NCBI GenBank assembly: GCA_012513125.1
Contig: JAAZCS010000131.1
Span: 1-10,396 of the forward strand
Length of the DNA: 10,396 nucleotides
Direction of reading: 5' to 3'
Origin: Treponema sp.
GTDB lineage: Bacteria; Spirochaetota; Spirochaetia; Treponematales; Treponemataceae
Below are positions 5,166 to 10,396 of the stretch, piece after piece (within the stretch, counting starts at the first letter, position 1; the number at the start of each line of letters is the position of its first letter). The position numbers were made by a program, and so were the translations under genes. The notes beneath the pieces are model-generated. The model did no database searches and was not told the origin of the DNA. It worked only from the letters and a program-made list of their open reading frames with translations.

Positions 5166-6086
5166 ATGAAAAATCAAAAATCAATAGTATTTTTATCTTC
5201 ATTCGGGCTGATTCTAACTGCCTGTTTCTGGGGTTTTGGATTCGTTGTTGTAAAAGATAGTCTGAATTATATTGGTTCAATTTATATGGTAACCTTTAGA
5301 TATACACTTGCGGCAGTTTGTTTAAGCCTTATTTGCTTTAAAAAGTGGAAATTGATTAGCTGGCGTTATATTAAAGATGGTTGTATTACTGGAACTTTCT
5401 TATTTTTAGGATATGTCGTTCAAACTATCGGATGTAGCTATACAACTGCTGGAAAAAATGCCTTTTTAACTACTATTTATGTTATTCTCATCCCTTTCTT
5501 TTCTTGGATTCTTTATAAAAAGAAACCAGAATGGTACATTTTTGTTGCAGCTATTTTATCAATTACTGGAATTGGTTTTCTTTCACTAAGTTCAGATGCT
5601 TCTTCACTGTTGAAGATTAATAAAGGTGATTTGCTGACTTTGTTATGCGGTGTTTTTTATGCCTTGCATATAATGTGGACATCTCACTGTAATTCACAAG
5701 GTGACGATCCGTTGTTTTTAACTATGCTTCAATTTACATTTGCCGCAATTTTTGGTTGGATTCTATCACCAATTTTTGAAGGCACTCAATCTTTGCATTT
5801 GCTTGGAAACTCAAGAGTAATAATTTCAATTTTGTATTTGGGAATCTTTAGCACAATGATTGCGTTCAGTTTGCAGAATTTGGGCTTGAAATATGTAAAA
5901 CCGTCATTGGCATCGTTGTTTTTGTCATTTGAATCGGTGTTCGGCGTTGTTTTCAGTATGATTTTCTTGAAAGAAAGCTTGAGTGTAAGAATGGTTTTTG
6001 GTTGTGTCTTGATTTTCTTGGCGGTTGTCCTTGCAGAAACTAAGTTTCAATTCTTTGGCAAGAAAAAAGAGAATATTGTATCTTAA
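5166..6086 (+). CDS. EamA/DMT-superfamily transporter, substrate unknown
   Basis: Inner-membrane protein of 306 aa with about ten hydrophobic helices in two EamA repeats (roughly residues 12-142 and 152-292). This is the usual 10-TM architecture of drug/metabolite transporters, many of which export amino acids or other small metabolites. Recognisable family features are the N-terminal helix with FWGFGFVVVK, the first-repeat GYVVQTIGCSYTTAGKNAF segment, and the second-repeat ending SFESVFGVVFSMIFLKE. A Lys-rich tail (KKK near 299) is predicted to be cytoplasmic. The gene stands alone between the glgP terminator and the ABC promoter, so context gives no substrate. No Shine-Dalgarno precedes the ATG; a -10-like hexamer sits 7 nt before it, suggesting a near-leaderless mRNA. 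Family call is firm, function open. Confidence 0.88.
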   Translation: MKNQKSIVFLSSFGLILTACFWGFGFVVVKDSLNYIGSIYMVTFRYTLAAVCLSLICFKKWKLISWRYIKDGCITGTFLFLGYVVQTIGCSYTTAGKNAFLTTIYVILIPFFSWILYKKKPEWYIFVAAILSITGIGFLSLSSDASSLLKINKGDLLTLLCGVFYALHIMWTSHCNSQGDDPLFLTMLQFTFAAIFGWILSPIFEGTQSLHLLGNSRVIISILYLGIFSTMIAFSLQNLGLKYVKPSLASLFLSFESVFGVVFSMIFLKESLSVRMVFGCVLIFLAVVLAETKFQFFGKKKENIVS

Positions 6087-6135: not shown

Positions 6136-6909
6136 ATGAAAAAGTTTTTAAGAATTTTAGCTACAGCTTTAGTTTTGAGCTGTTTATTTGTATCTTGTTC
6201 AAAAAGCAAGGTTGTAATCAATACAGCTGCTGATTTAAATGGTAAAAAAATTGGTGTTCAAACTGGAACAACTGGTGAAATGTGGGTTCAGGACAATGTT
6301 CAGAATGTTTCACTTTCATCTTTCAAAACAGGAATTGATGCATCTTTGGATTTGAAGAACGGTGCAATTGATGCTGTAGTTCTTGATGAACTTCCAGCAA
6401 AAGAAATTGTATCAAGAAATTCAGATTTAGTTATTATTGATATGGATTTGGCAACAGAAGAATATGCAATCGCTGTTAAAAAAGGAAATACAGAATTACT
6501 TTCACAAATTAATCAAACAATTAATGAGATGAAAAATAATGGTGAATATGTTTCTTTAGTAAACGCTTTTATGCCAGTTGATGGAAACATTGTTATTCCT
6601 GCAACAGAAAAATCATCTAGTTCAAAAGTTGTAAAACTTGGAACAAACGCTGCTTTCCCTCCATTTGAATATGTTGAAGGAAAAGATATTGTTGGTTTTG
6701 ATATTACAATGGGTGAAAAAATTGCAAAAACAGCTAATGCTCAGCTTGAAGTTGTAGATATGGCTTTTGACAGTCTTATTCCGGCTTTAGCTTCTGATGC
6801 AATTGATTTTATTGCAGCTGGAATGTCTGTTACAGATGAACGTAAAAATAATGTAGATTTCTCTGTTCCTTATTATCAGTCAAAACAAGTTGTAATTGTT
6901 CGTAAATAG
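6136..6909 (+). CDS. Amino-acid ABC transporter receptor lipoprotein, circularly permuted SBP_bac_3 fold
   Basis: Extracytoplasmic receptor that delivers an amino acid to the permease/ATPase encoded next; 257 aa. The signal peptide ends in a lipobox-like FVSC, so Cys21 is the predicted lipidated residue. The domain halves are in reversed order. Residues 30-145 match what is normally the C-terminal half: AADLNGKKIGVQTGTTGE at 31-48, DAVVLDELPAK at 79-89, EEYAIAVKKGN at 108-118 and the final helix INEMKNNGEY at 129-138. Residues 165-257 match the normal N-terminal half: KLGTNAAFPPFEYVEG at 167-182, GFDITMGEKIAK, FDSLIPAL at 211-218, AAGMSVTDERK at 227-237 and VDFSVPYYQSKQVVIV at 240-255. A Ser-rich linker (146-164) joins them. 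Ligand-type residues from both lobes are kept (Asp84; Thr233 and Arg236, by analogy with GlnH), so it looks functional. The reading frame is continuous with a normal start and stop. Substrate is inferred only as a (polar) amino acid. Confidence 0.9.
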   Translation: MKKFLRILATALVLSCLFVSCSKSKVVINTAADLNGKKIGVQTGTTGEMWVQDNVQNVSLSSFKTGIDASLDLKNGAIDAVVLDELPAKEIVSRNSDLVIIDMDLATEEYAIAVKKGNTELLSQINQTINEMKNNGEYVSLVNAFMPVDGNIVIPATEKSSSSKVVKLGTNAAFPPFEYVEGKDIVGFDITMGEKIAKTANAQLEVVDMAFDSLIPALASDAIDFIAAGMSVTDERKNNVDFSVPYYQSKQVVIVRK

Positions 6910-6918
6910 TTAATTTTG

Positions 6919-6954
6919 TAAGAACGTCATACTTTTTGGCGTTCTTATTTTTTT
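6919..6954 (+). terminator. Intra-operon terminator between receptor and permease
   Basis: UAAGAACGUCA (6919-6929) pairs with UGGCGUUCUUA (6937-6947), 11 bp with one U-G wobble and a 7-nt loop, followed by seven T (6948-6954). It lies just behind the receptor stop and before the permease ribosome-binding site. Partial termination here would give more receptor than permease/ATPase mRNA, and the hairpin may protect the receptor mRNA 3' end. Confidence 0.9.
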
Positions 6955-6966: not shown

Positions 6967-7635
6967 GTGTTTCAATCTTTTATAGATACAATGATATCCG
7001 GTGGGCGGTGGCAATTGATTTTCCAAGGGTTGGGAATTACGTTGCTGATTGCTGTTTTTGCAATTTTAATTGGTACAGTCTTGGGTTGTATTTTCGCCTT
7101 GATGAAGGTATCAGAAAATAAATTACTGAAATGGATTGCCGAACTTTATACAACAGTTTTACGCGGAATTCCGTTGGCAACTCAACTGATGATTTTTTAT
7201 TTTGTAATTTTTGCTCCTTTGGGGATGAACAGGCTTGTTGTTGCAATTCTAGCTTATGGAATAAATTCCGGGGCTTATTGTACAGAAATATTCAGAGCTG
7301 GAATTCAGGGAATTGATATTGGTCAGACGGAAGCTGGCCGTTCTTTGGGTCTTACAAAACAACAAACTTTATTTAAAATAATTTTGCCTCAAGCTGTTAA
7401 AGCAGTTTTGCCAACGTATACAAGTGAATTCATTGTTCTAATAAAAGAAACATCTGTTGCAAGCTTTATTGCTGTAATGGATTTAACAAAAGCCGGTGAT
7501 ATGATTCGTAACGCTACATACAACGCATGGATTCCATTATTGACTTGTGCAGTTATTTACTTAATTCTTACTGTGGGATTAACAAAATTATTTGCTAGAT
7601 TTGAAAAGAGGATGGCAAAAAGTGATAGAAGTTAA
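6967..7635 (+). CDS. Amino-acid ABC transporter permease (HisM/GlnP type)
   Basis: Inner-membrane subunit of 222 aa that forms the translocation path, presumably as a homodimer since only one permease gene is present. About five hydrophobic helices are visible, starting at [20 protein letters not shown] (17-36). The segment [17 protein letters not shown] near 62-78 is typical of polar amino-acid permeases. The EAA coupling loop reads [20 protein letters not shown] at about 122-141 and contacts the ATPase. Start is GTG with AAAGGA upstream. The 3' end overlaps the ATPase gene by 14 nt, so translation is probably coupled. A terminator precedes it, predicting lower expression than the receptor. 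Substrate specificity cannot be read from the sequence. Confidence 0.94.
7606..7612 (+). promoter_or_regulatory. ATPase ribosome-binding site inside permease gene
   Basis: AAGAGGA ends 9 nt before GTG 7622. It favours that GTG over the in-frame TTG at 7592, which has no comparable site and would add ten atypical residues. Confidence 0.7.
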
Positions 7636-8344
7636 AAACCTAAAAAAGAATTTTGGAAGTCTTCAAGTAATAAAAGATATTTCTGTTAATATTGAAAAAG
7701 GTAAAAAACTTGTAGTTATTGGACCATCTGGTTCTGGTAAAAGTACATTTTTACGTTGTTTGAACAGACTTGAAGTTCCTGACGGTGGAACAATTCTATT
7801 TAAAGGAATTGATATTACAAATCCGTCTACAAATATTGATTTATGCAGACAAAAAATGGGAATGGTTTTTCAACATTTTAATTTATTCCCACATTTGACT
7901 GTTATGCAGAACATAACTCTTGCCCCAACAACATTAAAGTTGCAATCGGTGGAAGAGGCAAAAGAAAACGCATTAAAACTTTTGCAAAGAGTCAGCTTGA
8001 CAGATAAAGCAGATTCTTATCCTTCAACTTTATCTGGCGGGCAAAAACAAAGAATTGCTATTATTCGTTCTTTGGCTATGAATCCTGATGTAATGCTTTT
8101 TGATGAACCAACTTCAGCATTAGATCCAGAGATGGTTGGCGAGGTTCTTTCTGTAATAAGAGATTTGGCTCATGAAGGAATGACTATGGTTGTTGTTACT
8201 CACGAGATGAGATTTTCTAGAGATGTAGCTGATGAGATACTTTTTGTTGATAATGGCTATGTTTTGGAAAGAGGTAATCCTGAAGAAATATTCCAAAATC
8301 CAAAAACAGATAGACTGAAGTTATTTTTGGAATCAGTTTTGTAA
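7622..8344 (+). CDS. Amino-acid ABC transporter ATP-binding protein (GlnQ/HisP type)
   Basis: Cytoplasmic ATPase subunit that powers the importer. From GTG 7622 the protein is 240 aa beginning [12 protein letters not shown] (first residue read as Met), the standard size for PAAT-family ATPases. Motifs: Walker [10 protein letters not shown] at 34-42, Q-loop [10 protein letters not shown], signature LSGGQKQR, Walker [15 protein letters not shown] and H-loop VVVTHEM. The closing residues ([20 protein letters not shown]) are also typical of this family. It overlaps the permease by 14 nt and ends the operon. Only weak hairpins without a long T run follow (8359-8376 and 8395-8417), so the operon's 3' end is not sharply defined. 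Confidence 0.95.
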
Positions 8345-8809: not shown

Positions 8810-9118
8810 ATGAGTACTCACAAAACAATTGATGAACAGACTTTACAGAATCTGTTATATTTATCACGTCTTTCTCCGGAAAGTACAAATATTGAAATCC
8901 TCAAAAAACAAGTTGACGACATAATTGGATATTTTGAAATTCTTTCTAAATATGATGATAGTGAAAATCCTTATGATGCTTATCCTTCAACAAAAGTTGA
9001 AGCTCTTCGCAATGATGAAGTAGTTCCTGGTCTTGAGATGCACGATGTAAAAAAAGTTTCAAAAGATTTTATGGACGGTTATTTCCAAGTACCAAAAGTA
9101 TTGGGCGAAGGTGCTTAA
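8810..9118 (+). CDS. gatC: GatC, subunit of Asp/Glu-tRNA amidotransferase
   Basis: Small subunit (102 aa) that wraps and stabilises the GatA-GatB pair of the cytoplasmic enzyme converting Glu-tRNA(Gln) to Gln-tRNA(Gln) and/or Asp-tRNA(Asn) to Asn-tRNA(Asn). Family features: LLYLSRLSPE near 15-24, the VDDIIGYFEIL helix near 46-56, the LRNDEVVPGLE block and the conserved ending DGYFQVPKVLGEG. Length is normal. It is first in a gatC-gatA order with 20 nt to the next gene. The promoter's -10 ends 6 nt before the ATG, predicting leaderless translation for this gene. A glutaminyl- or asparaginyl-tRNA synthetase may therefore be missing from the genome, but the window cannot show that. Confidence 0.94.
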   Translation: MSTHKTIDEQTLQNLLYLSRLSPESTNIEILKKQVDDIIGYFEILSKYDDSENPYDAYPSTKVEALRNDEVVPGLEMHDVKKVSKDFMDGYFQVPKVLGEGA

Positions 9119-9138
9119 ATTTTTAAAGTGAGAAACTT

Positions 9139-10396
9139 ATGATATATACAATAGACGAAACAAGAAAAGCTTTGAAAAAAGGCGAAATTACAAGTAAAAA
9201 ATTAATTTCAGATTCAATAGAAAACTTTGAAAATGATAAAAACAGCAGGATTCCTTTGAATGCATTTTTGGAAATGTATGATGATGCTGTTACAAAGGCC
9301 GAATGTGCTGATAAAGAGATTGAAGAAGCTAGAAAAAACGGAACTTTAGACAAACTTTTTGAAGAAAAACCATTGTTGGGTCTTCCTTTTGCAGTTAAAG
9401 ATAATATTTCTGTAAAAGGTAAAAAACTAACTTGCGCTTCAAAGATTTTGACTGGTTATGTTGCTCCTTACAATGCAACTGTAATTTCCAGATTGGAAAA
9501 TGCTGGTGCCATTCCTTTGGGACGCTGCAATCAAGATGAATTTGCAATGGGTTCTTCAACTGAATATTCATGTTATGGTCCAACAAGAAATCCAATAAAT
9601 AGAGACTATGTTTCTGGTGGTTCTTCCGGCGGTTCAACAGCTGCTGTTAGTGCAAATCAAGTTTTATTCGGACTTGGAACAGAAACTGGTGGTTCTGTTC
9701 GTTTACCTGCAAGTTATTGCGGAATCTACGGATTAAAGCCGACTTACGGTGTTTTGAGCCGCTGGGGTGTTGTTGCTTATGGTTCAAGTTTGGATCAAGT
9801 TGGAATTTTGGGACATACACCAAGTGATATTGCAACACCTTTGTCTGTTATGGCTGGCGTTGATGTTTATGATGACACCTCTACTGATTTAAAAGATGTT
9901 GCTGAATTAAGAAATCTAAAAGCTTTAAGTGAAAACGAGTTCAAACAGTTAAAAGTTGCTATTCCTCGCCAGTTCTTGGAAACAAAAGGTTTGGACAAAG
10001 ATGTTTCTGCTATTTTTGAAAATACAAAAAAATGGTTTGAAGCTAAAGGTGCAAAAATTGAAGTTGTTGATTTGCCAATTTTGGACGCATCGATTGCAAG
10101 TTATTACGTAATTGCTTTGTCTGAAGCTGCTTCTAATTTGAGCCGATTTGATGGAATCCGTTACGGAAACCGTATTGATGAAGGCAAGGGTTATGATGAA
10201 CTTTATGTTACAACAAGGTCGAATGGTTTTGGTCCTGAAGTAAAGCGAAGAATTGTAATTGGAAATTATGTTCTTTCTGAACAGTTCAGCGGTGACACTT
10301 ACAAAAAAGGAATGACTGTTCGTTCTAGAATTCAAAAAGAGATTGCTGCTTTGTTTGAAAACTACGACATCATTTTGTGTCCAACTTGTCCAACTC
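9139..10396 (+). CDS. gatA: GatA, amidase subunit of tRNA amidotransferase (3' end beyond window)
   Basis: Glutaminase subunit of GatCAB: it hydrolyses glutamine and channels ammonia to GatB for amidation of mischarged tRNA. 419 codons are present; the family's length of about 485 aa implies a short C-terminal part is missing. The amidase-signature Ser-cisSer-Lys triad is intact: Lys87 in FAVKDNI, cis-Ser162 in SGGSSGGS and nucleophile Ser186 in ETGGSVRLPAS. The spacing (75 and 24 residues) equals that in characterised GatA. Leu189 stands where GatA usually has Gln (IRQPA), a mild change. GLKPTYGVLSRWGVVAYGSS and SLDQVG are further GatA hallmarks. Start ATG 9139 has only a weak purine-rich site (AAAGTGAG) upstream. 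It is probably co-transcribed with gatC, with gatB expected downstream. Antisense reading frames here are shadows. Confidence 0.96.
   Translation, partial: MIYTIDETRKALKKGEITSKKLISDSIENFENDKNSRIPLNAFLEMYDDAVTKAECADKEIEEARKNGTLDKLFEEKPLLGLPFAVKDNISVKGKKLTCASKILTGYVAPYNATVISRLENAGAIPLGRCNQDEFAMGSSTEYSCYGPTRNPINRDYVSGGSSGGSTAAVSANQVLFGLGTETGGSVRLPASYCGIYGLKPTYGVLSRWGVVAYGSSLDQVGILGHTPSDIATPLSVMAGVDVYDDTSTDLKDVAELRNLKALSENEFKQLKVAIPRQFLETKGLDKDVSAIFENTKKWFEAKGAKIEVVDLPILDASIASYYVIALSEAASNLSRFDGIRYGNRIDEGKGYDELYVTTRSNGFGPEVKRRIVIGNYVLSEQFSGDTYKKGMTVRSRIQKEIAALFENYDIILCPTCPT

Follow-up and report, generated by a model that had tools for sequence, protein, structure and literature searches.

A circularly permuted SBP_bac_3 amino-acid receptor in Treponema and its apparent return to normal order in one lineage

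Closest described receptors

The lipoprotein Tp0684 (TpMglB-2) of Treponema pallidum is a naturally permuted ABC-importer receptor, a Type I glucose receptor in which the first three strands of the N lobe have moved to the end of the chain and a fourth hinge crossover is added and needed; receptors of this type are placed in treponemes and Gram-positive gut bacteria (PMC4990184). The gene analyzed here lies in a window of 10,396 nucleotides, meaning the whole stretch of DNA under study (contig JAAZCS010000131.1 of the gut Treponema assembly GCA_012513125.1). Its product resembles Tp0684 in being a naturally permuted ABC-importer receptor, but Tp0684 is a Type I sugar receptor cut in the N lobe, whereas the window receptor is of the SBP_bac_3 type and cut in the first hinge strand (PMC4990184). 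The SBP_bac_3 match and the hinge cut set the window receptor apart from the Tp0684 class (Type Ic / Cluster Bc), and the proposal of a first-pass annotation that it is a second, independent case agrees with the different receptor class and cut site (PMC4990184).

Both halves of the normal-order receptors GlnH and TmArgBP (6svf) match the window receptor, with T45, D84, and R236 conserved; unlike them, the window receptor has reversed halves, an extra linker, and termini in the hinge. The C1-N2 stretch of the GlnPQ tandem 6h30 is co-linear with query residues 18-253 (84.3 bits), so that a C-N chain can be excised from such an arrangement, although 6h30 itself has the normal N-C-N-C order. Moreover, the ionotropic glutamate receptor S1 profile PF10613 (112 of 115 positions) ends at residue 256, one before the end of the receptor, with a score of 26.8 bits that is below the cut-off of 30. 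Glutamate receptors insert their pore at this S1 end point and therefore have an insertion, not a permutation. In the literature searched, which leaves most subscription journals outside, neither a permuted SBP_bac_3 protein nor a reverted permutation was reported.

Architecture of the permuted receptor

The receptor gene (Table 1) has a Shine-Dalgarno-like "agagg" a little upstream of its ATG, as read by eye. The nine motifs quoted in the first-pass annotation as signs of a circular permutation are all present in the translation, in the order claimed, and profile searches bore the permutation out. The Pfam SBP_bac_3 profile (PF00497; 132 positions, curated cut-off 26.4 bits) matched the window DNA in two inverted stretches instead of one co-linear match, with profile positions 2-93 at 6634-6909 (97.4 bits) and positions 97-129 at 6307-6570 (26.5 bits, alone barely above the cut-off); the whole protein scored 119.8 bits (E 8.8e-35), above the cut-off. 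Considering that the two halves of PF00497 are inverted in the receptor and the order is not co-linear, the protein is a permuted variant and no ordinary SBP_bac_3 member. Chance as the cause of the inverted half order is excluded. The source genome carries two other SBP_bac_3 genes, both in normal order.

In a search of solved structures, one chain (the arginine-binding protein 6svf) matched both halves separately, its residues 11-104 corresponding to query residues 165-257 (84.4 bits) and its residues 112-224 to query residues 30-143 (75.3 bits), indicating that the break sits where the chain of a normal receptor makes its short passage from lobe 1 into lobe 2. Profile, 6svf matches, and structural model all support the earlier placement of the cut at a hinge strand: the permuted receptor is opened at the first hinge strand, and the linker bridges the old termini. 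The gap between the two half matches coincides with the old C/N junction that had been proposed at residues 146-164, and the description of this linker as Ser-rich suits the window copy and is less apt for its relatives. The Cys21 column was Cys in all 22 aligned permuted sequences; this Cys is missing from some permuted Treponema copies, among them those at loci L122 and L158.

Table 1. Features of the receptor locus (window coordinates)
Feature	Position	Strand	Remark
Permuted SBP_bac_3 receptor gene	6136..6909	+	257 aa plus stop, continuous open frame
Putative signal peptide with probable lipobox, Cys21 last	6136..6198	+	Cys21 conservation
Old C-terminal half, residues 30-145, now leading	6223..6570	+	Profile and structure matches
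Linker, residues 146-164, old C-terminus to old N-terminus	6571..6627	+	19-residue gap between half matches
Old N-terminal half, residues 165-257, now trailing	6628..6906	+	Ends in hinge strand 247-256
Amino-acid ABC importer permease, GTG start	6967..7635	+	PF00528 and TIGR01726 above cut-offs
ABC importer ATPase	7592..8344	+	PF00005; GlnQ highest of the NCBIfam models (309.9 bits), under its cut-off of 379
EamA-family transporter, 5' of receptor	5166..6086	+	Often kept beside receptor in Treponema
Hairpin of 12 pairs followed by U run	6918..6954	+	Between receptor and permease genes

Phylogeny and apparent reversion

Ten normal-order Treponema genes are 54-66% identical to the window receptor in each half, or 50-65% over the stretches matched in the genus scan. 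In a tree of rotated units (128 of 135 units kept after removal of identical ones, without L002 and L004, which duplicate the window locus, and without units in which the two halves were not both detected), the normal-order Treponema genes fell within the permuted genes. A 63-row tree, built without 20 closely related permuted rows of Treponema and without L126, which has a long branch, and with 16 hand-picked outgroup rows, placed the Treponema rows, 15 permuted and 10 of normal order, in one clade (support 100/96) that was joined by the permuted L013 (100/99) and then by the permuted L015 (96/89). The same nesting was obtained with the C half only and with the neighboring permeases (53 rows); with the N half only it was weak, and one permuted row fell within the normal-order group. 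The joint tree of receptor and permease, containing the 53 of 63 rows that have a permease, gave 100/98 for the mixed Treponema clade. The L015 permease grouped with those of the normal-order L016 and L041, away from that of L013, indicating that the L015 operon was not inherited as a block. In addition, a wider spirochaete tree recovered the mixed clade at 99/97 and a closer group of seven normal-order and four permuted rows at 95/93; this tree left out 12 more rows, L046, L149, L150, L152, L156, L164, and L144-L146, and also L151 and L166, which have no single clean pair of halves.

AU tests rejected a clade that unites the permuted Treponema genes with L013 and L015 to the exclusion of the normal-order genes, both on the 63-row set (p 0.0006) and on the wider set (p 0.0013); on the joint data, permuted Treponema plus L013 as one clade had p 0.041. 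Monophyly of permuted Treponema was not rejected (p 0.078 with 63 rows and 0.12 with the joint data), a result that counts in favor of several separate permutations at one hinge site, in which case the normal-order genes of Treponema would have kept the ancestral order and no reversion would have occurred. All these p values are optimistic because the tested groups were chosen with the first tree already in view. Since the permuted L013 and L015 lie outside, reversion follows even with permuted Treponema monophyletic, by a smaller margin. Repeated switching at the hinge site is real, with at least 4 to 5 order changes on the whole trees: permuted and normal-order groups alternate among the Bacillota, and the permuted arrays of L031, L035, and L119 form, together with L033, a separate group (98 in the 128-row tree, long branches). 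Within the clades concerned, however, an account without reversion is costly. For L015 plus Treponema it needs 8 gains on the 63-row tree and 10 on the wider tree, and for L013 plus Treponema 6-12 gains across each of 1000 bootstrap trees; if reversion is allowed, the L015-Treponema clade needs one (63-row) and two (wider) order changes, plus the original permutation.

The proteins themselves also speak against independent permutations. Each of the 10 normal-order Treponema proteins carries a C-terminal tail 15-16 residues long, e.g., MPVDGEIKVLSVEDL, similar to the opening of the permuted linker (in the window, MPVDGNIVIP), whereas none of 42 other normal-order relatives extends more than 11 residues beyond the same point; the tail and linker counts, like the neighbor-gene counts given below, run over locus records that include some genes twice. 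The hinge gap of 6 in 10 of 10 normal-order Treponema proteins falls in the usual range; linkers of permuted receptors have 18-24 residues. Counting against the reversion, no duplication remnants were found beside the 10 normal-order Treponema genes, where tblastn of both halves returned the main ORF only, the sole extra match (L106, E 0.51) being at chance level. The linker-like tail may predate the permutation; against this, the normal-order L147, near the base on a long branch, is without the tail motif. L147 (genome G286), a normal-order spirochaete receptor located near L013 and L015, may keep the ancestral order.

Judged from these sequence comparisons, a single permutation that was later undone in one Treponema lineage appears to be the best reading, and we regard independent permutations without reversion as unlikely. 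It is quite probable that one orthologous operon gene passed from normal to permuted and back to normal order, with the hinge length restored and the former linker persisting as a fossil tail.

Fold, putative binding residues, and selection

An AlphaFold2 model built from 22 permuted sequences had a mean pLDDT of 91.5 and a pTM of 0.82, with residues 247-256 as the final strand and the linker (residues 146-164, pLDDT 81-88) as the lowest-scoring region of the mature part. A Foldseek search with this model ranked the GlnPQ tandem 6h30 first, and the best TM-score by query length was 0.45 among the best 50 of 589 matches with E up to 0.001, a value that does not describe a whole domain because Foldseek aligns sequentially and permuted chains cannot be superposed whole. 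A tandem at the top rank combined with a low TM-score is thus expected for a C-N chain.

T45, D84, and R236, which we take to be binding residues from their roles in GlnH and HisJ, were invariant in 22 of 22 permuted sequences; R236 and D84 would presumably be the cleft residues for the carboxylate and amino groups of the amino acid. Four close pairs had dN/dS ratios of 0.09-0.17, and the window receptor differed from five relatives by dN 0.19-0.24 and dS 0.88-1.14. The confident model and the low dN/dS point to a folded receptor under selection. None of the NCBIfam receptor models of known ligand reached its cut-off with this protein, whose ligand is presumed to be an amino acid.

Domain swapping occurs in other substrate-binding proteins, and with the new termini in the hinge a single strand ties the lobes together, so that permuted chains might pair their lobes across a dimer. 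Considering that the single-chain model is already confident at the pTM given above, we view such a swapped dimer as improbable.

Operon and neighboring genes

Permease and ATPase genes directly follow the receptor gene, as the first-pass annotation had stated in describing an ABC importer operon, and both match those of polar amino-acid importers. Translation of the ATPase probably begins near 7622, downstream of the TTG that was listed as its start. The hairpin ahead of the permease gene (MFE -15.8 kcal/mol, z -4.55, with 1 of 200 shuffles equally good) may work as an attenuator through which the receptor is made in surplus. Among permuted Treponema locus records with at least 1 kb upstream, 20 of 59 had the EamA-family gene upstream. 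The tRNA amidotransferase subunit genes gatC and gatA were observed after the importer genes, at 8810-10395, and the open-ended minus-strand frame at 2-397 is presumably PurE-like.

Among records with at least 800 nt downstream, a permease gene adjoined the receptor in most of those from Treponema, whether permuted (52 of 59) or of normal order (9 of 10), and in 6 of 14 permuted Bacillota records, indicating that most permuted Bacillota receptors stand without a detected adjacent permease. The latter are those at L018, L022, L024-L027, L029, and L033. The 15 permuted records in which no adjacent permease was detected (8 of 14 Bacillota, 7 of 59 Treponema) would suit a protein that has ceased to be an importer receptor and serves, for example, as a sensor or scavenger. 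Such a loss of importer function is improbable for the window receptor, given the permease and ATPase directly after it and the permease that adjoins most Treponema copies.

Distribution of the permuted form

A scan of species genomes with the receptor protein yielded 69 loci, a sample biased toward relatives of the query, comprising 23 single permuted receptors, 34 normal-order receptors, 1 cut receptor, 5 permuted unit-permease fusions, 4 permuted arrays (one of them cut at its 5' end), and 2 normal-order tandems. The same permutation recurs in other spirochaete genomes: the permuted gene was present as an unbroken match in 73 of the 146 genus genomes sampled and in 35 of the 296 sampled across the phylum, the latter spanning nine genera of the same family and three further families. 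A normal-order relative was found in 10 of the 146 genus genomes and only long permuted arrays in 4; at E 1e-20, 59 had no match to the receptor, and none combined a single permuted copy with a normal-order relative. Beyond the spirochaetes, a record of 3.03 Mb from the isolate Anaerotruncus massiliensis AT3 encodes a permuted receptor, L013.

The window is contig 348 of a 2.27-Mb source genome in 406 contigs with an estimated completeness of 80.6%, so fragmented that misassembly or misbinning of a normal-order gene had to be weighed; this rearranged-assembly explanation, raised in the first-pass annotation, is ruled out for practical purposes by the recurrence of the inverted order in independent assemblies, including the 73 genus genomes, among them G119 (1 contig) and G076, G132, and G145 (2 contigs each), and A. 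massiliensis AT3.

Several permuted C-N arrays are fused to a permease. The frame at L031:631-5280 has five units in 1550 codons; two units are present in L017:4170-6395, L035:815-3169, and L119, and L166 is a three-unit array with permease in one chain. The L030 array is cut. Provided that every unit folds, a dimeric importer built from an L031-type array could bear as many as ten receptors. The model of the L035 C-N-C-N-permease chain was weak (pLDDT 73.4, pTM 0.39, 9 sequences); in it, residues 285-293 between N1 and C2 were below pLDDT 50, which at most hints at C1N1 and C2N2 pairs. L038, L064, L065, L067, and L068 each have one permuted unit, whose halves match weakly, joined to a permease in a protein of 513-520 residues.

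Proposed origin and mechanism

We estimate a probability of about 85% that the gene encodes a working ABC-importer amino-acid receptor with a permuted SBP_bac_3 fold that arose by duplication, followed by a later return to N-C order in one Treponema lineage. The exported and probably lipid-anchored chain would fold into the usual two-lobed trap, in which one hinge crossover is covalent and the other is made by the new C-terminal strand lying beside the new N-terminus. An amino acid would be bound via the usual residues of the family and handed to the adjacent permease and ATPase, with opening and closing presumably as in the relatives, through a single covalent crossover where they have two. 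The membrane tether would leave from the hinge, and docking on the permease may be altered, as the first-pass annotation suggested.

The permuted order could have originated by a tandem duplication giving N-C-N-C, as in L016 and L028, followed by loss of the outer halves to leave signal peptide, C half, linker, and N half. Tandems of both orders exist among the scanned loci. Near-identical copies form the normal-order N-C-N-C tandems at L016:1778-4012 (fused to a permease) and L028:3227-4723, and the match to L016 spans query residues 16-256; tandems of this type could be the kind of intermediate able to give a C-N chain. The duplication-then-deletion origin suggested in the first-pass annotation is favored to this extent, while no intermediate was caught at the receptor locus. 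A second round of duplication would give C-N-C-N as in L017, whose N-C join has a 10-residue gap, and trimming to this N-C join would restore the normal order. No C-N-C-N intermediate was seen in the reverted Treponema lineage.

Significance

These findings confirm that the swapped-half amino-acid receptor of a gut Treponema is real and that the swapped form occurs in many related bacteria. The normal, permuted, and apparently re-normalized relatives, close to one another in each half and most of them with homologous permeases alongside, constitute a natural experiment on chain order, which allows natural rather than engineered proteins to be compared for their folding, hinge dynamics, anchoring, and docking. 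If the reversal is true, its documentation would make circular permutation a reversible and repeatable step, not a one-way accident.
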